Part shown: positions 8,820 to 33,646 of the stretch, piece after piece | Layout: each line of letters starts with the position of its first letter | Numbering within the stretch: the first letter of the stretch is position 1 | Source: an uncultured delta proteobacterium | GTDB lineage: Bacteria > Myxococcota_A > Polyangia > Polyangiales > Polyangiaceae | NCBI GenBank assembly: GCA_903906315.1 | Contig: CAIVJW010000038.1 | Span: 1-34,318, forward strand | Direction: 5' to 3' | Length of the DNA: 34,318 nucleotides | Notes under the pieces: generated by a model | Database searches by the model: none | What the model was told of the DNA's origin: nothing | Seen by the model: only the letters and a program-made list of their open reading frames with translations | Position numbers and translations under genes: made by a program

Positions 8820-10268
8820 GTGCTGTTCAACACCCTCGAGTACGCAGCCTTCTTCGCCGCGGCCTTCACGATCTCGTGGGGCCTCGCGCGCCTGCGGAGC
8901 CCCTGGCTGCGCGTCGTGTTCCTGCTGTGCGCGAGCTACGGCTTCTACGCGGCGTGGAACTGGCGCTACCTGCCGCTCATCTTCGCGTCCTCGACGGTGG
9001 ACTTCTTCCTCGCGCGCTGGATCGCGCGCGAGACGGACGCGCGCCGTCGCAAGGCCGCGCTCGTCGTGACGGTGGTCTTGAACCTCTCGTTCCTGGGGTT
9101 CTTCAAGTACTGGAACTTCACGGTCGAGAACGTGCGCCTCCTCGAGGCGTGGGTCACGGGCGCCGCGCCCGTCGCGCCGAGCGACGCGCTGCGCGTGCTC
9201 CTGCCGCCGGTCGGCATCTCGTTCTTCACGTTCGAATCGATGAGCTACGTCATCGACGTCTACCGCGGCGACCTCGCGCCCCACGCGAGCTACCTGCGCT
9301 ACCTGCTCTTCGTCTCGTTCTTCCCGCACCTGGTCGCGGGGCCCATCGTGCGCCCGCGCGACCTGCTCCCGCAGCTCGAGCGCCCGCCGGTGCTGACGCG
9401 CGAGGTCGCCGGCGAGGCGATGTTCCTCATCGCGATCGGGCTGATGAAGAAGATCGTGATCAGCGATCAGCTCGCGCTAAACCTCGTCGACCGCGTCTTC
9501 GAGCGGCCGTCGAGCTTCTCCGCGATCGAGACGCTGGCCGGGGTCTATGGCTACGCGGTGCAGATCTACTGCGATTTCTCGGGCTACACCGACATCGCGA
9601 TCGGATCGGCGCTGCTGCTCGGCGTGCGGTTCCCCAAGAACTTCGACCAGCCGTACCAGGCGACCAACATGGCCGACTTCTGGCACCGCTGGCACATCTC
9701 GCTGTCGACGTGGCTGCGCGACTACCTCTACATCCCGCTCGGCGGCAGCCGCGGGAAGGGGTGGCTCACCTACCGCAACCTGATGCTCACGATGCTCCTC
9801 GGCGGGCTGTGGCACGGGGCGAGCTGGACGTTCGTGTTCTGGGGCTTCTTGCAGGGGCTGGGGCTCGGGGTGACGCGCGCGTGGCAGCGCTGGCGCAAGG
9901 ACCGGCGCGGCGGCGCGCCGGCACCCGCGTCGTTCGCGCACGACGTCGTCGCGAGCGTGCTCACCTTCCACTACGTGTGCCTGTGCTGGATCTTCTTCCG
10001 CTCGCCGACCTTCGGGCAAGCGCTGGCGGTGATGCGCCAGATCGCGACGCTCACGACGTTCCACCCGAACCTGCCGACGGTCGTGCTCGCCGTGCTCGGG
10101 CTCGGGGTCGCGGCGCTGCTCGTGCCGCGCAAGGCGCACGACGTCGCGCTCCGCCGGTTCGCCGCGCTGCCCGCGGTCGCGCAGGGCGTGCTCTTGTTCG
10201 TGGTGGCGATCGTGCTGCACGAGGCCGCGAGCGTGGCGGCCGTGCCGTTCGTCTACTTCCAGTTCTGA
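8820..10268 (+). CDS. MBOAT family membrane O-acyltransferase (AlgI-like)
   Basis: A 482-residue polytopic membrane enzyme of the MBOAT family, close in layout to alginate O-acetyltransferase AlgI. Recognisable elements are the N-terminal MLFNTLEYAAFF and FLLCASYGFYAAWNWRY, the reentrant-loop motif SFFPHLVAGPIVRP at about 166-179, YCDFSGYTDIAIG (250-262), DFWHRWHISLSTWLRDYLYIPLGG with His289 and His292, and the invariant LLGGLWHGASW with the catalytic His332. These enzymes pass acetyl groups across the membrane to exported polysaccharide or secondary wall polymer. AlgI-type proteins usually work with an SGNH-type periplasmic partner; none is adjacent. It is divergent from the deacetylase operon, which suggests opposed acetylation and deacetylation of one glycan. 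The start is GTG at 8820, with no clear ribosome binding site. Confidence 0.95.
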   Translation: MLFNTLEYAAFFAAAFTISWGLARLRSPWLRVVFLLCASYGFYAAWNWRYLPLIFASSTVDFFLARWIARETDARRRKAALVVTVVLNLSFLGFFKYWNFTVENVRLLEAWVTGAAPVAPSDALRVLLPPVGISFFTFESMSYVIDVYRGDLAPHASYLRYLLFVSFFPHLVAGPIVRPRDLLPQLERPPVLTREVAGEAMFLIAIGLMKKIVISDQLALNLVDRVFERPSSFSAIETLAGVYGYAVQIYCDFSGYTDIAIGSALLLGVRFPKNFDQPYQATNMADFWHRWHISLSTWLRDYLYIPLGGSRGKGWLTYRNLMLTMLLGGLWHGASWTFVFWGFLQGLGLGVTRAWQRWRKDRRGGAPAPASFAHDVVASVLTFHYVCLCWIFFRSPTFGQALAVMRQIATLTTFHPNLPTVVLAVLGLGVAALLVPRKAHDVALRRFAALPAVAQGVLLFVVAIVLHEAASVAAVPFVYFQF

Positions 10269-24050: not shown

Positions 24051-25847
24051 ATGCGCGGGCGCGACGTACGGGCCGAGACTCTCTACTTCATCGTCACCGA
24101 CCGGTTCGCGAACGGCGATCCGGACAACGACTTCGGCGACACCCCCGAGGGCACCGACCCGACGCGGACGAACTGGCTGCGCTACTGGGGCGGCGATCTC
24201 GCCGGCATCGAGGCGAAGCTCGACTACCTCGCGGCGATCGGCGTCTCGGCGATCTGGATCACCCCGATCTTCAACCAGATCGACGCGATCTGCGACGACG
24301 AGGGGCGCCTCACCGCGCCCTACCACGGCTACTGGACCAAGGACTTCAAGCGCATCGACGAGCACCTCCTGCCGCGCGGCGAGTGGCACCGGCCGTTCAG
24401 CGATCGCGACACGCTCTTCGACCGCATGCTCGCGAAGGCGCACGACCGCGGCATCAAGGTGCTGCTCGACGTCACCTGCAACCACACGAGCGCGGGCGCG
24501 CCCGGGGCGCCCAAGGGCGAGCTCTACGACGACGGCGAGTACCTGCTCTCGTACGACGACGACAAGCTCGGCTGGTACAACCGACACGGGCCGATCCGCG
24601 ACTGGAACAACCCGAGCGAGGTGATGAAGGGCGAGCTCCGCGGCCTCGCGGACCTGAACGAGGACGTCTACAGCTTCCGCGCGTACATCCTCGAGACGAT
24701 GGCGGCGTGGCTCGATCGCGGCATCGACGGCTTCCGCGTCGACGCGGTCAAGCACATGAGCCTGTCGTTCTGGCAGGAGTTCACCGCCACCATGAGGAAG
24801 CGCCGCCCCGACGTGATCCTCTTCGGCGAGTGGGCCGGCATCGGGCACTGGGACACCCACGGCGTGCACTTCGCGAACGCGTCGGGGATGAGCCTGCTCG
24901 ACTTCGACTTCCAGTACGCCGTCGCCGACGTGCTCTGCCGCGGCGAGCCCTGGCGCCGCCTCGCGGAGGTGTTCCACCACGACCACGTGTACGACGACGC
25001 GACCGAGCTCGTGACGTTCCTCGACAACCACGACATGCCGCGGCTCTTGTCGACCGGCCTGCACCCGGCGCTCCTGCCGCTCGCCGTCGCGCTGCTCATG
25101 ACCTCGCGCGGCGTGCCCTGCCTCTTCTACGGCACCGAGCAGTACCTGCACGACGACACGGCCGGCGGCGGCGATCCGTACAACCGCCCGATGATGACCG
25201 CGTGGGATCTCGGCACGCCCGTGGCGGTCGCGCTGCCGCGGCTCGCGGCGCTGCGCCGGCAGAACCTGGCCGTGCAGCGCGGGTTCATGCGCGAGCTGCT
25301 CGTCGACCGCGACGTGTTCGCGTACGCGCGCGGCTACAACGGGGCGGCGGTGGTCGTGGTGCTCAACCGCGGCGCCGAACGGACGATCGACCTCCACGAC
25401 GTGCTCCTGCCCGACGGCGAGTACGTCGACGTGCTCGGGGCGCTGCCGGGGCCGGTGCGCGTGCGCAGCGAGCGCATCGAGGGGCTCACGGTCCCCGCCG
25501 GCGCGGCCGTGGTGATCGAGCGATCCGTCCCGCTACCCGCGGCGCGATCGCTCGCCGTCACGCGCCTGAACGGCTACACGTCGCGCTACGGCGACCGCGT
25601 CGTCGTGGTCGGCGACGCGCCGGAGCTCGGGGCGTGGAACCCGGAGAAGGGCATTCCGCTCCAGTACGTCAATGGCAATCTGTGGATGGGCGATCTGACC
25701 TTCGACGCCTCGGCCGGGACGGACGTGCTCTATCGCTACGTGGCCTTCGACCGGGCGGGCCAGGTCCACTACGAGGACCGCACTCCGCGCCAGCGGCGCG
25801 TCGAGGCGGAGGGCGTCGTGGAGTGGCGGGACCGCTGGGAGGCGTGA
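24051..25847 (+). CDS. GH13 alpha-amylase-like enzyme with C-terminal starch-binding domain (CBM20)
   Basis: A 598-residue glycoside hydrolase 13 enzyme, closest in motifs to the cyclodextrin glucanotransferase and maltogenic amylase group. Conserved regions: LYFIVTDRFANGDPDND (11-27), LLDVTCNHTS (His145), GFRVDAVKH with the nucleophile Asp231, FGEW with the acid/base Glu260, and FLDNHDMPR with the stabiliser Asp328. A beta-sandwich domain C follows. Residues from about 504 form a CBM20 starch-binding domain (VVVVGDAPELGAWNPEKGIPL, then NLWMGDL and YRYV). The IPT-like domain D of true CGTases seems absent. No signal peptide is present at this start, so the enzyme may act on cytoplasmic storage glucan or leave by another route. 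The TGA stop is followed by C, and 157 coding-like bases follow. Confidence 0.93.
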   Translation: MRGRDVRAETLYFIVTDRFANGDPDNDFGDTPEGTDPTRTNWLRYWGGDLAGIEAKLDYLAAIGVSAIWITPIFNQIDAICDDEGRLTAPYHGYWTKDFKRIDEHLLPRGEWHRPFSDRDTLFDRMLAKAHDRGIKVLLDVTCNHTSAGAPGAPKGELYDDGEYLLSYDDDKLGWYNRHGPIRDWNNPSEVMKGELRGLADLNEDVYSFRAYILETMAAWLDRGIDGFRVDAVKHMSLSFWQEFTATMRKRRPDVILFGEWAGIGHWDTHGVHFANASGMSLLDFDFQYAVADVLCRGEPWRRLAEVFHHDHVYDDATELVTFLDNHDMPRLLSTGLHPALLPLAVALLMTSRGVPCLFYGTEQYLHDDTAGGGDPYNRPMMTAWDLGTPVAVALPRLAALRRQNLAVQRGFMRELLVDRDVFAYARGYNGAAVVVVLNRGAERTIDLHDVLLPDGEYVDVLGALPGPVRVRSERIEGLTVPAGAAVVIERSVPLPAARSLAVTRLNGYTSRYGDRVVVVGDAPELGAWNPEKGIPLQYVNGNLWMGDLTFDASAGTDVLYRYVAFDRAGQVHYEDRTPRQRRVEAEGVVEWRDRWEA

Positions 25848-26004: not shown

Positions 26005-27309
26005 CTACTCGGCGGCGGCGACCGCCTGCGAGGCCACGAACGCGTCGATCGCCTCGACGAACGCGGCGGGCTGCTCGAGCTGCGGCAGGTGGCCGGCGCG
26101 CGCGAGGCGGACGAGGGTCGCGCCCGGCCACGAGGCGGCGAGCTTTCTCGCCGCCGACAGCTCGGTGCCCGGGAGGCGGTCGTCCTCGCCCCAGAGGATC
26201 AGCGGCGCGACCGGGTAGTGCGCGGGCGCGCCGCCCTCGATCAGCACGTCGACGAGGGCGTCGAGCGCGGCGGGCGCGGGCTGGGCGAAGAGGCGCGCGA
26301 GGTCGGCGGGCGCGCGGCCGGGATCGGCGAACGCGCGGTCGAGCGTGCGGGGGCCGAAGGCGTCCTTCCTGAGCCTGCCGCGCAGGAGGCCGCGGCCCAT
26401 CGAACGCTCGCCGACCCACTTGAGCGGCCGGGAGGTGGGCGCGAGCGGGGCGCCGTTCACGAGCACGAGCCCGGCGCAGAGGTCGGGCCGGTCGGCCGCC
26501 AGGCGCGCCGCGATCGAGGCGCCGAACGAGCTGCCGGCGAGCCAGGCCGCGGGCACGTCGAGCGCGCCGAGCAGCGCGGTGAGCCAGCGCGCGTAGCCGT
26601 CGACCGAGGCGAGCGGCGCGCGGCGGAGGTCGCCGAAGCCCGGCAGATCCGGGGCGATCACGCGGAAGCGGTCCGCGAGGCGGTCCCACACGGGCTGAAA
26701 GTGCAGGGCCGCGCCGCCCCACGCGCCGTGCACCAGGAGCAGCGGCGGGCCGTGGCCGCCGACGAAGACCCTCGCGGCGCTCCCCTCGACGGTCACGACG
26801 CGCTCGGCCACCCGCTCGCGCACGTCGCCGACCTGGTCGCCGCGATCGCCGTCGCGGTGCGAGGCGGGGAAGCGCTCGGTGAGGTGGGTGAGCACGCGCA
26901 GGCACGCCTCGAGGTCGTCGGGGTGGAGCTCGGCGGCGACGCCGCGCAGGGCGCGCTGCTCGCGGTCGAGGAGCCCCGCGACGGCCGCGCGCCCGAGCGG
27001 CGTGAGCGCCACCAGCGAGGATCGGCGGTGCGCCGGGTTCGCCTGCATCTCGACCAGGCCCTCGGCGAGCGCGGCGTTGACCAGGCGCTGCACGAACTGT
27101 CGCCCGAGCCCGTGGGCGCGCGCGATCTGGGGCACCGACTGCAGCCCCGCGTGGTGCAGGCGCTCGAGGACGGTGCGCCGGCCCTGGGTCATCCGGGCGC
27201 CGGCCGCAGGCGCCGCGAGGGCGCGGCCGAGCCTGCGACCGAGGGGCCGGAGCCGCCGGATCACGTCGAACAGCAACAGGTCGTTCGGAGCCCTCCGTCG
27301 CGCCGCCAT
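26005..27309 (-). CDS. MarR-type HTH fused to an alpha/beta hydrolase
   Basis: A 434-residue two-part protein. Residues 1-148 are a MarR-like winged helix-turn-helix: RMTQGRRTVLERLHHAGLQSVPQIARAHGLGRQFVQRLVNAALAEGLV (HTH about 55-87), and the wing and signature NPAHRRSSLVALTPLGRAAV (91-110), followed by a dimerisation helix. Residues 170-425 are an alpha/beta hydrolase: LLLVHGAWGG (oxyanion), nucleophile elbow Gly259-Ser-Ser261-Phe-Gly263, ILWGEDDRLPG with Asp376/377, and AGHLPQLEQP with His407. The triad looks intact. It may sense or degrade a small ester or lactone ligand while repressing its own gene. A perfect inverted repeat at 27347-27373 lies 37 bases upstream. Start ATG 27309 has no Shine-Dalgarno. 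Such a fusion is unusual; MarR proteins are normally about 150 residues. Confidence 0.9.
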   Translation of the reverse strand: MAARRRAPNDLLLFDVIRRLRPLGRRLGRALAAPAAGARMTQGRRTVLERLHHAGLQSVPQIARAHGLGRQFVQRLVNAALAEGLVEMQANPAHRRSSLVALTPLGRAAVAGLLDREQRALRGVAAELHPDDLEACLRVLTHLTERFPASHRDGDRGDQVGDVRERVAERVVTVEGSAARVFVGGHGPPLLLVHGAWGGAALHFQPVWDRLADRFRVIAPDLPGFGDLRRAPLASVDGYARWLTALLGALDVPAAWLAGSSFGASIAARLAADRPDLCAGLVLVNGAPLAPTSRPLKWVGERSMGRGLLRGRLRKDAFGPRTLDRAFADPGRAPADLARLFAQPAPAALDALVDVLIEGGAPAHYPVAPLILWGEDDRLPGTELSAARKLAASWPGATLVRLARAGHLPQLEQPAAFVEAIDAFVASQAVAAAE

Positions 27310-27316
27310 GAAGCGA

Positions 27317-27325
27317 CACCTAGCA
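27317..27325 (-). promoter_or_regulatory. Extended -10-like box of the MarR-hydrolase gene
   Basis: On the minus strand this reads TGCTAGGTG. Seven bases separate it from the ATG at 27309. It lies directly downstream of the operator, so a bound regulator would block polymerase at this promoter. Confidence 0.5.
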
Positions 27326-27346
27326 CGTCATCGCGACGCCGGAAGC

Positions 27347-27373
27347 GTCTTGTTCAGCGGACCTGAACAAGAC
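27347..27373. promoter_or_regulatory. Palindromic operator of the MarR-hydrolase fusion
   Basis: Two 11-nt arms, GTCTTGTTCAG at 27347-27357 and its exact reverse complement at 27363-27373, flank a 5-base centre (CGGAC). It is notably AT-rich for this genome and is the best inverted repeat I found in an intergenic region. Position and symmetry fit a dimeric winged-helix (MarR) repressor acting on the gene at 27309. The amidohydrolase gene on its other side is transcribed toward it and ends 60 bases away. Confidence 0.7.
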
Positions 27374-27432
27374 CGCATGCGTGGCCGTAAGATGTCGTGA
27401 TCACGCACGAATGTGCCCTCGACGACGAGCGG

Positions 27433-28623
27433 CTAATCGAGCGCGAGGCCGATCACCCGCTGCGCGTTCTTCCAGTACACGTCGTCCAGCACCTCCGGCG
27501 GCAAGTCGACGCCGTCGATGGGCCACGATCCCTGGATCGGCGTCGGGTGCGGGAAGGCCCGGTCGGCGGTCTCGAGCCACCGCGCGGTGGCGCCGAAGAA
27601 GAGGTCGCGGTCGGCGTCCGTCGGCGGCGTCGCGCCGGTCGATCCGAGCATGAGCGGCTCGCCGGGCGGCCCGATGCCGAGGTCGGTCCCGTAGAGGATG
27701 CGGTCGTGCCACCGCACGAGGAGCGCCCGCATGCGCGCCGGCGGGTGGCGCCCGAGCTCCGGGATGCGCGCCGCGAGGTCGACGTAGAGGTTCGGGTGGT
27801 CGCGCAGCATGCGGTCGACGCGATCGGGGTCCTCGGCGTCGTTGCCGAAGTGCACGCCGATGAACGTGGTGCGCGGGTGGCGCGCGACGCGCCGCTCGAA
27901 CGCCGCGAGGAGCTCGTCGAAGCGGGGGACGGGCGCATCGTGGAACGCCCAGCCCGGGTGCACCGAGAGCTCGGCGAAGCGCTCGTTCGACGGGCTCACG
28001 GGCTGCCAGAAGGCCCGCGGGTCGGCCGTGTGGATGGCGACGGGCAGGCCGAGGCGGCCGGCGGTCTCGAACACGACGTCGAGCTCCGGGTCGTCGACGG
28101 CGACGAGCGATCCGTCGAAGCGGCGCATGCCGAGGCCGAGGGCCTTGGCGATCTTCAGGCCCTTCGCGCCCGCGGCGTGGGCCTTCTCGACCAGCGCGGC
28201 CAGGCGGGGCCCGTAGCCGGGCTCCTGCGCGAGGCCGTACGCGAGGGTCGTGAACACCGTGATGCGCCCCGGCATCGCCGCCGCCTGCGCGAGGTGCGCG
28301 GCGAGGACGCGCCCGCCGGCTCCGCCCGAGAGGTCGACGACGTGGTCGAAGCCGTAGCGGTCCATCAGCGCGCGGAGCTCGGGGAGCGAGCCGAGCGAGA
28401 GGTGGACGTGCGCGTCGACGACGTGGCGCGACCGGCGGCCCGGCCGCGACGGAGGCCCGCCGGCGTCGGGCGCGCGATCGGTCGTGGACGCGACGGCGCG
28501 CGCGATCGAGCTGGCGGGCGGCGCGGGACCGTCGCCCCCGCCACCCAGCACGGCCCAGCCGACCGCGCCCGCGATCGCGGCGAGGATCGCGACCGCGCGC
28601 GCGAGGCCGGGGCGCGTCGCCAC
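27433..28623 (-). CDS. Membrane-anchored amidohydrolase (TIM-barrel, amidohydrolase_2 type)
   Basis: A 396-residue protein with an N-terminal hydrophobic segment (about 8-27, signal anchor), a disordered Pro/Ala/Ser linker to about 65, and a metal-dependent TIM-barrel hydrolase. Metal ligands are visible: VVDAHVHL with His72 and His74, Lys157 (GLKIAK), AIHTADP with His198, GVHFGN with His258 and YGTDLG with Asp314. Families with this layout (amidohydrolase_2 and PHP-like lactonases) cleave or decarboxylate cyclic amides, lactones or aromatic acids; the substrate is unknown. The exported location suggests an extracellular substrate. The GTG start is 12 bases after the kelch lipoprotein stop, so it is in one operon with it. 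The MarR-hydrolase gene and its operator lie downstream. Confidence 0.88.
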   Translation of the reverse strand: MATRPGLARAVAILAAIAGAVGWAVLGGGGDGPAPPASSIARAVASTTDRAPDAGGPPSRPGRRSRHVVDAHVHLSLGSLPELRALMDRYGFDHVVDLSGGAGGRVLAAHLAQAAAMPGRITVFTTLAYGLAQEPGYGPRLAALVEKAHAAGAKGLKIAKALGLGMRRFDGSLVAVDDPELDVVFETAGRLGLPVAIHTADPRAFWQPVSPSNERFAELSVHPGWAFHDAPVPRFDELLAAFERRVARHPRTTFIGVHFGNDAEDPDRVDRMLRDHPNLYVDLAARIPELGRHPPARMRALLVRWHDRILYGTDLGIGPPGEPLMLGSTGATPPTDADRDLFFGATARWLETADRAFPHPTPIQGSWPIDGVDLPPEVLDDVYWKNAQRVIGLALD

Positions 28624-28635
28624 GGTGGGCGGCGG

Positions 28636-30474: not shown

Positions 30475-31689
30475 TCAGACGCGGGTCGCGCCGACGATGG
30501 CGGCGACGAGGCGGGGGACGTCCCGCTCGGCGACCGAGCAGAGCGCGACGCGGAGGGCGCCGGCCTGCGGGACCACGAACAGGCCCGCCTCCTGGAGGCG
30601 CAGCGCGGCCGGGAACGGGTCGTCGCAGAAGACGGTCGTGAAGAAGCCGCCGTCGTAGCGCGGGTAGCGGAGCCCGGCGGCGCCCGCGAGCTCGTTCCAG
30701 CGGGCGACGCGGCGATCGAGCAGGGCCTTGAGGACGGCGCGCTCGCCGTCGACGCGGGCGCGGAGGTCGGCGTCGCCGAGGATGCGCGCGATGGCGGACT
30801 GACCGGCCGAGTTGACGTTCGACCAGGTGCCGCGGCACGAGAAGCTGAGCGCGTTCTGCACGCGGCGCCGCTCGGCCTCGTCGGGCGTGACGGCGACGAG
30901 CGCGCCGACACGCAGGCCGTACTGGGTGAAGGTCTTCGACGCGGACCAGGCGAAGGTGATCATGGCCTTGCCCGAGAGGCGCAGGACCTGGTCGACGCAC
31001 GTGGCGAGGTCGGACGCCCCGTAGCGCGCGTAGGCGACGTCGAGGACGAGCGAGATGGGGCCGCGCTTGGCCTCGGACTCGACGACCCCGACGAGATCGG
31101 ACCACTCGGAGGCGTCGAACGAGTAGCCCGTCGGGTTGTGGCAGGGCGAGTTCAGGAACACGAGCGCGCGGCCCTGGCCCTCGAGCTGACCGTGGAGGGC
31201 GCGAGCGAAGTCGGTGACGTCGAGGCGGCCCTTCGCGTCGAACATGCGGAACGTCGAGAGCGACCGGTCGGACTCGTCGGCGAGCGTCTTGTACGGGCCC
31301 CAGTAGAACGAGCTCGTCAGGAGCGACTGGCCGGGCTCGAGGAAGTTCGCGATCGCGAGGCGGAGGGCGCCGGTGCCGCCGGGCGTGGAGACGGCGGCCG
31401 TCATGGCCGCGGCCGGGCGCGTGCCGAGCAGGTCGGCGACGACGAGGCGCAGGAACTCCGCGTTGCCGGCGAGCGGCGCGTAGCCCGCGCCGACCTCGGC
31501 CGGCACCTCGCGCAGGGTCTGGGTGACGCCGCCGAGCACGGCGAGCTTGCCGTCGTCGTCGAGCAGGGCGCCGACGGTCGCGTTGACGATGGACTCGCCG
31601 GCGGCCGCGCGCGCACGGGCCGCGGCGTTGAGGGCGAAGATCGGGTCGTCACCAGGGCGCGAAGTCCGCGACGGGATCAAAAACTCCAT
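30475..31689 (-). CDS. Class I/II pyridoxal-phosphate aminotransferase
   Basis: A 404-residue aminotransferase of fold type I, subgroup with aspartate/aromatic enzymes. Motifs: VGAGYAPLAGNAEFLRLVV (66-84), STPGGTGALRLAI with the cofactor phosphate loop, NSPCHNPTGYSFD with Asn185, VLDVAYARYG with Asp217 and Tyr220, the Schiff-base SASKTFTQYGLRVG with Lys252, and the C-terminal RVALCS with the substrate-carboxylate Arg. The Cys-rich NALSFSCRGTWSNVNSAG region matches tyrosine-type enzymes that act on aromatic or branched substrates. It is cytoplasmic, with a normal family length (about 400). No partner gene is adjacent, so the substrate cannot be inferred from context. A TA box lies six bases before the ATG at 31689 and no Shine-Dalgarno is seen. 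Confidence 0.95.
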   Translation of the reverse strand: MEFLIPSRTSRPGDDPIFALNAAARARAAAGESIVNATVGALLDDDGKLAVLGGVTQTLREVPAEVGAGYAPLAGNAEFLRLVVADLLGTRPAAAMTAAVSTPGGTGALRLAIANFLEPGQSLLTSSFYWGPYKTLADESDRSLSTFRMFDAKGRLDVTDFARALHGQLEGQGRALVFLNSPCHNPTGYSFDASEWSDLVGVVESEAKRGPISLVLDVAYARYGASDLATCVDQVLRLSGKAMITFAWSASKTFTQYGLRVGALVAVTPDEAERRRVQNALSFSCRGTWSNVNSAGQSAIARILGDADLRARVDGERAVLKALLDRRVARWNELAGAAGLRYPRYDGGFFTTVFCDDPFPAALRLQEAGLFVVPQAGALRVALCSVAERDVPRLVAAIVGATRV

Positions 31690-31695
31690 GGATCG

Positions 31696-31704
31696 CCGCT
31701 ATCA
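31696..31704 (-). promoter_or_regulatory. -10-like TA box before the aminotransferase gene
   Basis: On the minus strand this reads TGATAGCGG, six bases before the ATG at 31689. It keeps the extended TG and the TA core; the rest of the hexamer is a poor match. The opposite strand carries TATCAT at 31700-31705, which has no -35 at the proper distance. Confidence 0.4.
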
Positions 31705-31811
31705 TGTCTCCGCGCCGGTCGCCACGGCCCCACCGTGCCGCAGCGCGGCAACCGGGGCCGGATCCGCGGCCCGGATCGGCCCCCCGGGGTGCTTCGGGCA
31801 GATCGACGCGC

Positions 31812-31830
31812 TAGCCTCTGCGTCTGGAGG
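31812..31830 (+). promoter_or_regulatory. TA box and Shine-Dalgarno of the subtilisin gene
   Basis: TAGCCT at 31812-31817 is the -10-like box. GGAGG at 31826-31830 is a strong Shine-Dalgarno lying four bases before the ATG at 31835 and ten before the ATG at 31841. This gene therefore has the TA box but a short leader with its own binding site, unlike the leaderless ones. Confidence 0.5.
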
Positions 31831-31834
31831 ACGC

Positions 31835-33646
31835 ATGGACATGACCCGGTCTCGATGGGCGGCCCTGGCCGCCGGCTTGCTGGGGTGGGCCTCCTCGGGG
31901 GGCGTGGCGATCGCTCAGCCCACGTCGGTCCCGCAGACGCCGGGCGACCGACCCGAGCCGAAGCGTGCCAACGAGCCCGTCTCGCCCGGCGCCGGCGTGC
32001 CGCTCGGCGCCGAGGCGGCGGACCTCGACGAGGCGGCGTACGACGTGCCGGGCGCGATCGTCGTCGACGCCCGGGACGACCTCGACGAGCCGGGCGTGCG
32101 CGGCCTCGCGGCGGCCTTCGGCCTGACGTTCGTGCCGACGTCGCTCGAGGCGTCGACGCGCATCGAGCTGGCGAGCGTGGCCGGCGGCGCCGTGCGCGAC
32201 GTGCTGGCCAAGCTCCGGGCCGACCCGCGCGTCGAGTACGCCGAGCCGCTCGCGCGCGTCCGGGCCTTCTACGCGGCGAACGACCCGCTCCTGTCCGAGC
32301 AGTGGCACCTCGCGCGCATCGGCGCGCCGCGCGCCTGGGACTTCGCGAGCGGGCGTGGCGTGACGGTCGCGGTCGTCGACACGGGCATCGCCTGCGAGGA
32401 CCACGGCCCGTTCACGAAGGGCACCGATCTCTCGGCGACGCCGTGCGTGCCGGGGTGGAACTTCGCCGCGAACAGCGAGCACGCGAACGACGACCACGGG
32501 CACGGTACGCACGTCGCGGGCACGATCGCGCAGTCGACGAACAACGGCCTCGGCGCGGCGGGCGTCGCGTTCCACGCGCGGCTGATGCCGGTGAAGGTGC
32601 TGAGCGAGTCGGGCTGGGGCACGACCGCGGACGTGGCCGACGGCATCCGCTGGGCCGCCGATCACGGGGCGCACGTCATCAACCTGAGCCTCGGCGGGCC
32701 GCGCAACGCGCAGGTCCTGCAGAAGGCGATCGACCACGCGATCGCGCGCGGCGCGGTCGTCGTCGCGGCGGCCGGCAACACGGGCGGGCGCGTGCAGTAC
32801 CCGGGCGCGTCGGACGGCGTGATCGGCGTCTCCGCGACCGACGCGAACGACAAGCTCGCGCCGTTCTCGTCGCGCGGCGACGGGGTCGACCTCGCGGCGC
32901 CCGGCGTCAACGTCACGCAGCAGACCGTGTGCAACCACGGTCGCGACAAATGCGAGCAGTTCCCCGCGTGGAACGGGACGTCCATGGCCTCGCCGCACGT
33001 CGCGGGCGCCGCGGCGCTCGTCGTCAGCCTCGGCGTGTCCGACCCGGCCGCCGTCGAGCGCGCGCTGCGCGACGGCGCCCGCAAGGTGGACGACTCCGAC
33101 GCCGGGCGCAAACAGTACGGCGCGGGGGTCCTCCAGGCCGCGAACGCGGTCGGGCAGATCACGCTGCGCCACGGGCTCGCGCGGCTCGCCGCGCTCTTCG
33201 CGGTGATGGTGCTGCTGGCCCGCGCGATCGCGCGAAAGGGCGCGGGCAGCTCGCCGTGGCGGCTCTCGTTCCTCGTCCCGGCGCTCTTCGCCGGGCCCGG
33301 GCTCGTCTTCTTCGCGCCGTGGCTGCTGCCGCGCGCCGACCTCGCGGTGGACCTGCTCGCGCGGCCCTTGCCCGACCTCGACCTCTTCGTGGGCGCGTCG
33401 CTGCACCGGTGGCTGCCGCTCGCGAACGCCGTCGTGCCCTTTGCGCTGACGGCCGTGTTCTACGGGGTGAAGCGCCTCCGGCCGGTGGTCGCGGGCTTCG
33501 CGGCCGGCACGGCGGCGTACCTCGTGTCGATCGCGGCGCTCGGCGAGCACGCGGGGCCGTTCGGGCGCGCGCTGCTGGTGGGCTGGTGCGCGATCAACGC
33601 GGCGCTCTGCGTGTGGATCGCGAAGGCGAACCTCGAAGAGGCGTGA
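31835..33646 (+). CDS. S8 subtilisin-like protease with C-terminal membrane domain
   Basis: A 603-residue exported serine protease. A signal peptide covers about 1-28. A propeptide of the I9 kind follows (about 70-145, VPGAIVVDARDDL ... VEYAEPLARV). The catalytic domain (about 150-440) holds Asp182 in VAVVDTGI, His223 in HGHGTHVAGT, the oxyanion Asn315 in AAAGN, and Ser383 in NGTSMASPHVAG. A Cys204/Cys187 pair and Cys366/Cys373 could form disulfides outside the cell. Residues 445-600 add about four or five membrane helices, which is unusual since most S8 enzymes end at the catalytic or a beta domain. The enzyme would stay attached to the membrane and cleave periplasmic or surface proteins. 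Start and binding site are described in the preceding entry. Confidence 0.94.
   Translation: MDMTRSRWAALAAGLLGWASSGGVAIAQPTSVPQTPGDRPEPKRANEPVSPGAGVPLGAEAADLDEAAYDVPGAIVVDARDDLDEPGVRGLAAAFGLTFVPTSLEASTRIELASVAGGAVRDVLAKLRADPRVEYAEPLARVRAFYAANDPLLSEQWHLARIGAPRAWDFASGRGVTVAVVDTGIACEDHGPFTKGTDLSATPCVPGWNFAANSEHANDDHGHGTHVAGTIAQSTNNGLGAAGVAFHARLMPVKVLSESGWGTTADVADGIRWAADHGAHVINLSLGGPRNAQVLQKAIDHAIARGAVVVAAAGNTGGRVQYPGASDGVIGVSATDANDKLAPFSSRGDGVDLAAPGVNVTQQTVCNHGRDKCEQFPAWNGTSMASPHVAGAAALVVSLGVSDPAAVERALRDGARKVDDSDAGRKQYGAGVLQAANAVGQITLRHGLARLAALFAVMVLLARAIARKGAGSSPWRLSFLVPALFAGPGLVFFAPWLLPRADLAVDLLARPLPDLDLFVGASLHRWLPLANAVVPFALTAVFYGVKRLRPVVAGFAAGTAAYLVSIAALGEHAGPFGRALLVGWCAINAALCVWIAKANLEEA

Follow-up and report, generated by a model that had tools for sequence, protein, structure and literature searches.

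A reverse-strand gene that appears to join a MarR-type DNA-binding domain to an α/β hydrolase lies next to a perfect palindrome, and the locus raises the questions of whether both domains truly belong to one protein, at which site such a protein would bind, and which gene it would regulate. Positions are given for the whole stretch of DNA that was analysed (34,318 bases), referred to below as the window.

The reading frame of the fusion gene

The coding sequence was an uninterrupted frame of 434 aa starting with ATG (26005..27309, reverse strand), and it contained two Pfam domains, each scoring above its cut-off, in agreement with the sequence-only reading that had proposed both activities in one chain. 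MarR_2 matched residues 47-97 with 28.3 bits, a narrow margin over the cut-off of 27, and Abhydrolase_6 matched residues 190-420 with 89.3 bits (cut-off 26.3) and was covered end to end (profile positions 1-217 of 217). Together with the alignment of relatives and the catalytic triad, these matches divided the gene into a MarR domain with its N-terminal region (residues 1-147, 26869..27309, reverse strand), a coding-like linker in the frame common to both domains (residues 148-170, 26800..26868, reverse strand) and the hydrolase domain (residues 171-434, 26008..26799, reverse strand). A score of 156 bits was obtained for the fusion protein with a MarR profile of 26 rows, from which the relative L089 was omitted and of which the fusion protein was itself one row. 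The best solved relatives were a MarR protein (3bj6, E 4.1e-11) for the N-terminal part and an α/β hydrolase (6i8w, E 2.8e-17) for the C-terminal part.

The recognition helix (RQFVQRLVN) and the wing (NPAHRRSS), followed by the C-terminal region, were placed by established MarR anatomy and alignment with standalone relatives rather than from a solved structure. The winged helix was flanked by sequence at either end, where the MarR dimer helices sit; the structure predicted from the single sequence was a poor model (mean pLDDT 37.7). The LTPLGR signature was located at residue 102, and the hydrolase carried the nucleophile Ser261 within GSSFG, with Asp377 and His407 completing the triad; these residues, including the alternative acid Asp376, were all where the earlier reading had put them. 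Alignment revealed that Ser261, Asp377 and His407 were conserved without exception in the 12 hydrolase relatives and that Asp376 varied among them, so that Asp377 is the likely acid of the triad. It was also noticed that residue 260 (26530-26532), which precedes the nucleophile, was Ser in the fusion protein and Asn in all 12 relatives.

The earlier reading had named a frameshift near residues 150-170 as the event that would make two genes look like one, and this was disfavoured by the codon usage of the linker. A frame test for which seven other genes within the window supplied the codon usage gave residues 147-170 scores of +8.7, -0.8 and -26.2 in forward frames 0, 1 and 2, respectively; as a control, frame 0 was the top frame in 218 of 221 windows from six genes of the test's own training set. 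On the reverse strand, one frame scored 8.6 against 8.7 for the true frame over the same residues, and over residues 157-180 a reverse frame reached 10.0 against 5.0 for frame 0; the margin over all six frames is therefore nil, and the linker argument concerns the three forward frames only. Third-position GC was 0.97 in the two 30-codon windows spanning residues 136-180. In frame +1, the next stop codon, TGA at residue 172, shared bases with an in-frame GTG at the same residue; such a layout would result if a one-base slip had joined two overlapping genes. With linker codons that agree with the forward frame of both domains, an origin from two genes by frameshift was judged unlikely. The gene is known from one draft genome of 455 contigs, and we consider it probably a genuine fusion, so far found in one genome.

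The upstream neighbour, which had been described as an amidohydrolase, indeed matched Amidohydro_2 and possessed a hydrophobic N-terminal stretch (27433..28623, reverse strand); it lay 123 bases before the fusion gene. A Kelch-repeat protein gene on the same strand was separated from the amidohydrolase gene by a 12-base gap (28624-28635), suggesting that these two genes are carried in one transcript upstream of the fusion gene. On the other side, convergent to the fusion gene, an alpha-amylase with a C-terminal starch-binding CBM20 domain was found at 24051-25847. Farther away, the longest frame of a subtilase with a Fervidolysin-like prodomain (31523-33646) overlapped a divergent aminotransferase with its first codons, and its start is therefore probably further in.

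Relatives of the two halves in other genomes

Fused homologues were searched for in overlapping sets of 144 order, 108 family, 317 class and 377 phylum genomes, in which the genus was represented by this genome alone; scoring was confined to a few top candidates per genome, and a distant fusion might be missed. Other phyla were covered via plasmids and by a contig search sensitive to close relatives only. No two-domain match was present among the matches listed for the 144 order genomes, at E up to 1e-25 in the family, class and phylum sets, or in the 8 matching plasmid records, and the contig search returned one partial hydrolase relative. The fusion is thus a singleton in the sampled genomes at the thresholds used. 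Likewise, no published fusion of MarR and an α/β hydrolase was found in the literature among the best matches, which is not proof of absence.

The two halves were found separately. Hydrolase relatives (E up to 1e-25) occurred in 9 other genomes of the 317 in the class and in 5 of the 377 in the phylum, 3 of the latter being new; the 12 loci were 43-54% identical to the fusion protein and aligned only from residue 154-172 onward. Matches to the MarR part (E up to 1e-9) occurred in 28 other genomes of the class, and the MarR relatives were separate-protein frames in 25 of 28 loci placeable by simple alignment, with one long frame (L089). This 467-aa frame was examined as a second fusion and rejected; its extension had no Pfam domain and a declining third-position GC, and is therefore probably non-coding.

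Neither half was regularly accompanied by the other. With the MarR profile at E up to 1, no MarR gene was detected near the hydrolase relatives in 44 loci, the 12 closest included; these loci represent 39 places (L045-L049 are longer cuts of L005-L009) with flanks of about 1.5 kb or more where the contig allows. As a positive control, the same profile picked up three MarR proteins from this genome that were not among its rows. Conversely, a panel of 34 hydrolase sequences revealed an α/β hydrolase near the MarR relative in 3 of 41 loci (L088, L097 and L098, with L050-L059 repeating ten of L068-L078), in each case as a separate gene, that of L098 being about 3 kb away. Among the 28 class loci, only L088 had such a hydrolase in its flanks: a convergent gene (L088:1860-3227) whose called end was overlapped by the MarR relative (L088:1297-1863). 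The MarR match of this locus was slightly below the Pfam cut-off, and its upstream region lacked the motif described below (best 7/10).

The palindrome and a candidate operator

The perfect inverted repeat that had been reported 37 bases before the start codon was confirmed at 27347..27373, with 11-base arms and a 5-base spacer (GTCTTGTTCAG-N5-CTGAACAAGAC). Perfect repeats with arms of at least 11 bases numbered 1 in the real window compared with a mean of 1.8 per resampled window, indicating that repeats of such size are unexceptional for a GC-rich stretch this long; inside the 123-base gap, such a repeat arose in 16 of 20,000 resamplings. The -10 box said to lie beside the palindrome was not found in a scan of 27200-27600 for sigma-70-like promoters, other promoter types being outside the scan. 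A role of the palindrome as a terminator was also considered and dropped, as the scan revealed no terminator-like site there. The transcribed gap was predicted to fold with the palindrome as a stem at -50 kcal/mol (z -1.8), and 7 of 200 shuffled sequences folded just as stably. In three loci of genus g39, a similar long palindrome, of the CGCCGRGTGGAYC...GATCCACYCGGCG type, was observed (L050:4701-4730, L052:109-140 and L056:3994-4023), which is possibly a repeated element or a terminator.

Two expectations attached to the palindrome, that further operator copies would exist in the genome and that it would precede homologues, did not hold. At up to 2 mismatches, the genome contained no other copy of its inner 8+8 bases, and a regulon recognised through such copies was discarded. 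With up to 1 mismatch, the palindrome occurred in 2 of 317 class genomes (the own genome and G216; 1 for the reversed control), and with up to 3 mismatches no copy besides those of the window and G216 was present in 105 loci. The palindrome was not seen beside homologues, an outcome that the sequence-only reading had itself named as a refutation.

Examination of the regions upstream of the MarR relatives revealed a different palindrome, TGACAA-N5-TTGTCA, that recurred near the start codon of nine relatives and was present in further ones. In the form TGACA-N6/7-TGTCA, it was found with at least 9/10 matches in 24 of 31 upstream regions (0.24 expected from resampling), where the 31 regions were 28 class loci and three plasmid loci, ten of them belonging to genus g39. 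Nine of these regions had served to read the motif, and the count excluding them was 15 of 22; the N6 form was included once it had been seen in four relatives. Seven regions were without the motif, among them L078, whose contig ends 10 bases upstream; L078 was kept in the count of 31, as were L088, L092 and L095, which were too weak for simple alignment. The distance between motif and start varied among relatives, whose start codons are uncertain. The motif was also present in the Streptomyces and Phaeobacter plasmid relatives, and a Burkholderia plasmid had an N6 site with 9/10 matches. A spacer of 6 instead of 7 (TGACA-N6-TGTCA) was seen in the more distant relatives L089, L090, L093 and L094. 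Some relatives (L053/L072 and L097) had two copies upstream, in one case TGACATGTCACATGTCA (10/12) and TGACAATATACTTGTCA, and the Streptomyces upstream region contained two TGACAACC..TGTCA sites.

In the fusion gene, the candidate operator was TGACGTGCTAGGTGTCG (27314..27330, reverse strand), which matched TGACA-N7-TGTCA at 8/10, ended 4 bases before the ATG over a Shine-Dalgarno-like AGGTG, and sat where the relatives carry theirs. It was the only N7 site with at least 8/10 matches in the window, 16 more being present at 7/10. In 20,000 resampled gaps, a site of at least 8/10 appeared anywhere in 1,306 and ended no more than 15 bases from the ATG in 219. The N7 trimming was picked after the Streptomyces sites had been seen, and the original 12-position form also ranked the TGACGTGCTAGGTGTCG site best (8/12). 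The N6 form was rejected for the fusion gene, its sole 8/10 site in the window being at 9871, away from the gene. As a genome-wide motif, the candidate was not discriminating: the related pattern with up to 2 mismatches had 119 forward and 164 reverse matches in the whole genome compared with 56 and 53 for the control. Because degenerate copies are common in the genome, position and relatives, and not sequence alone, carry the argument for this operator.

The palindrome matched the relatives' TGACA-N7-TGTCA at 4/10 at most, in spite of a recognition helix in the fusion protein (RQFVQRLVN) nearly identical to that of the Streptomyces relative (RQFVQRMVN), whose upstream region has exact copies of the motif. 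Based on this comparison, the MarR domain probably does not use the palindrome as its operator, and the assignment of this role in the sequence-only reading was probably wrong: the motif shared by 24 of 31 relatives has an 8/10 copy elsewhere in the gap. With moderate confidence, we place the putative operator at 27314-27330 rather than at the palindrome.

Proposed working and known systems

The explanation that we prefer, tentatively and as somewhat short of an even chance, is a self-repressing regulator-enzyme acting through the TGACA-N7-TGTCA-type site before its own ATG. One protein would combine an N-terminal MarR repressor with a C-terminal serine α/β hydrolase, predicted to be active. 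The MarR part, presumably as a dimer, would bind the candidate site at 27314-27330 over the ribosome-binding sequence and repress its own gene, such that enzyme and repressor would be produced together. An inducer, possibly an acyl compound, would free the repressor, and the level of the fusion protein would rise. The gap before the fusion gene has no divergent neighbour, which leaves the gene's own transcript as the sole obvious target there.

The neighbours of the MarR relatives give a hint on the ligand. Fourteen neighbour genes, a subset of all neighbours, were scanned for domains: a divergent acyl-CoA dehydrogenase faced the MarR relative in three genomes (L069:2071-3246, L079:2054-3223 and L086:2076-3248), and a fatty acid hydroxylase followed that of L068 (genus g39), where it was the sole neighbour scanned. 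Eight more coded for a radical SAM protein, two methyltransferases, a PfkB kinase, a metallo-β-lactamase-fold protein and three products that matched nothing. An acyl-type ligand for the MarR part of the fusion, which is our guess, fits the acyl-CoA dehydrogenases, the fatty acid hydroxylase and the two α/β hydrolases among these neighbours, and the fusion perhaps has a role in acyl metabolism. A switch that resets itself, in which the MarR part would respond to an acyl compound or ester and the attached hydrolase would end induction by destroying that compound, is a doubtful extension of this guess.

DNA binding and catalysis also share a single chain in BirA, PutA, MarR-GNAT proteins and other trigger enzymes or regulator-enzyme fusions, for some of which a link between substrate and regulation is known; their enzyme domains are other than the α/β hydrolase of the present fusion. 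A closer parallel is found on a plasmid of Streptomyces sp. NBC_01558, where a divergent pair encodes a MarR protein (WP_164369893.1) and an α/β hydrolase (WP_326844310.1). The former is 45% identical over 126 aa to the MarR part of the fusion, with nearly the same recognition helix and wing, and the intergenic region contains the TGACA-N7-TGTCA sites TGACAACCCGAGTGTCA and TGACAACCAAGGTGTCA. This pair is an unfused version of the same pairing, differing in that the genes are separate and the hydrolase is no more than a distant relative (33% over 98 aa). In Agrobacterium tumefaciens, as outlined in excerpts of the EstR report, the MarR-family repressor EstR is likewise paired with an esterase, repressing EstC, the esterase gene, as well as its own gene by way of palindromic sites that cover the promoters; there the two genes are separate and divergent, and the EstR operator, GTTATCGCGATAAC, is unlike the candidate operator of the fusion (PMC5201249). 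According to the same excerpts, the EstR inducer works via Cys16 (PMC5201249); an N-terminal reactive cysteine of this OhrR/EstR type is absent from the fusion protein, the cysteines of which are at 136 and 278 only. Esterase substrates are listed in these excerpts among the compounds that do not induce, which calls for caution in assuming that ligand and substrate are the same (PMC5201249). The excerpted account of SCO3205, a MarR regulator of Streptomyces coelicolor, describes two operators located before its own gene and before a divergent enzyme-like gene; it differs from the fusion in its consensus, TTnAAnnnTCAA, in a divergent gene that resembles extradiol dioxygenases, and in having the genes separate (PMC3737563).

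Other explanations assign the palindrome differently. That it is the MarR operator after all, through changed specificity or as a second site, with the hydrolase destroying the inducer so that repression resets, would agree with a repeat that is perfect, A/T-rich for the genome, 37 bases from the ATG and rare by chance in the gap; its 5-base spacer is the same as in TGACAA-N5-TTGTCA, and one Streptomyces site extends to 11-base arms. We nevertheless hold this to be unlikely, given the poor motif match with a nearly unchanged recognition helix, the single genome copy at up to 2 mismatches and its absence beside the relatives. A considerably better case, and a serious possibility compatible with the preferred self-repressing regulator-enzyme, is that the palindrome has no relation to the MarR domain and is a site for another regulator or an RNA hairpin between the amidohydrolase and fusion genes, as suggested by its dissimilarity to the relatives' operator and by the predicted fold of the transcribed gap; however, that fold barely beats the shuffled sequences, there is no terminator-like site, and no similar site in the genome points to another regulator.

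Two further explanations concern the protein itself, and we regard both as improbable. The fusion could be an artefact or a very recent accident in which a stop codon was lost, or a sequencing or assembly error: it is a singleton within the sample, complete separate proteins for both halves exist in relatives, the TGA over the in-frame GTG at 172 is what a one-base slip would leave, and a single-base error deleting a stop is possible in one draft of 455 contigs. Against this stand residues 147-170, which among the forward frames look coding in frame 0 alone, and the third-position GC at the junction. Alternatively, the MarR part may no longer regulate and may serve the hydrolase as a dimerisation or stability module, in line with a degenerate copy of the operator and no evident second target in the genome; yet the residues of the recognition helix and wing are kept, and frame and codon usage are without decay.

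If the self-repressing regulator-enzyme is true, the combination of repressor and enzyme in a single protein would amount to a minimal feedback circuit, testable via one gene and one site. What may be the more useful result is that a MarR subfamily of the sampled class genomes, Streptomyces and Phaeobacter appears to share TGACA-N6/7-TGTCA; this shared motif, sometimes beside enzymes of acyl metabolism, could allow ligands and targets to be predicted together.
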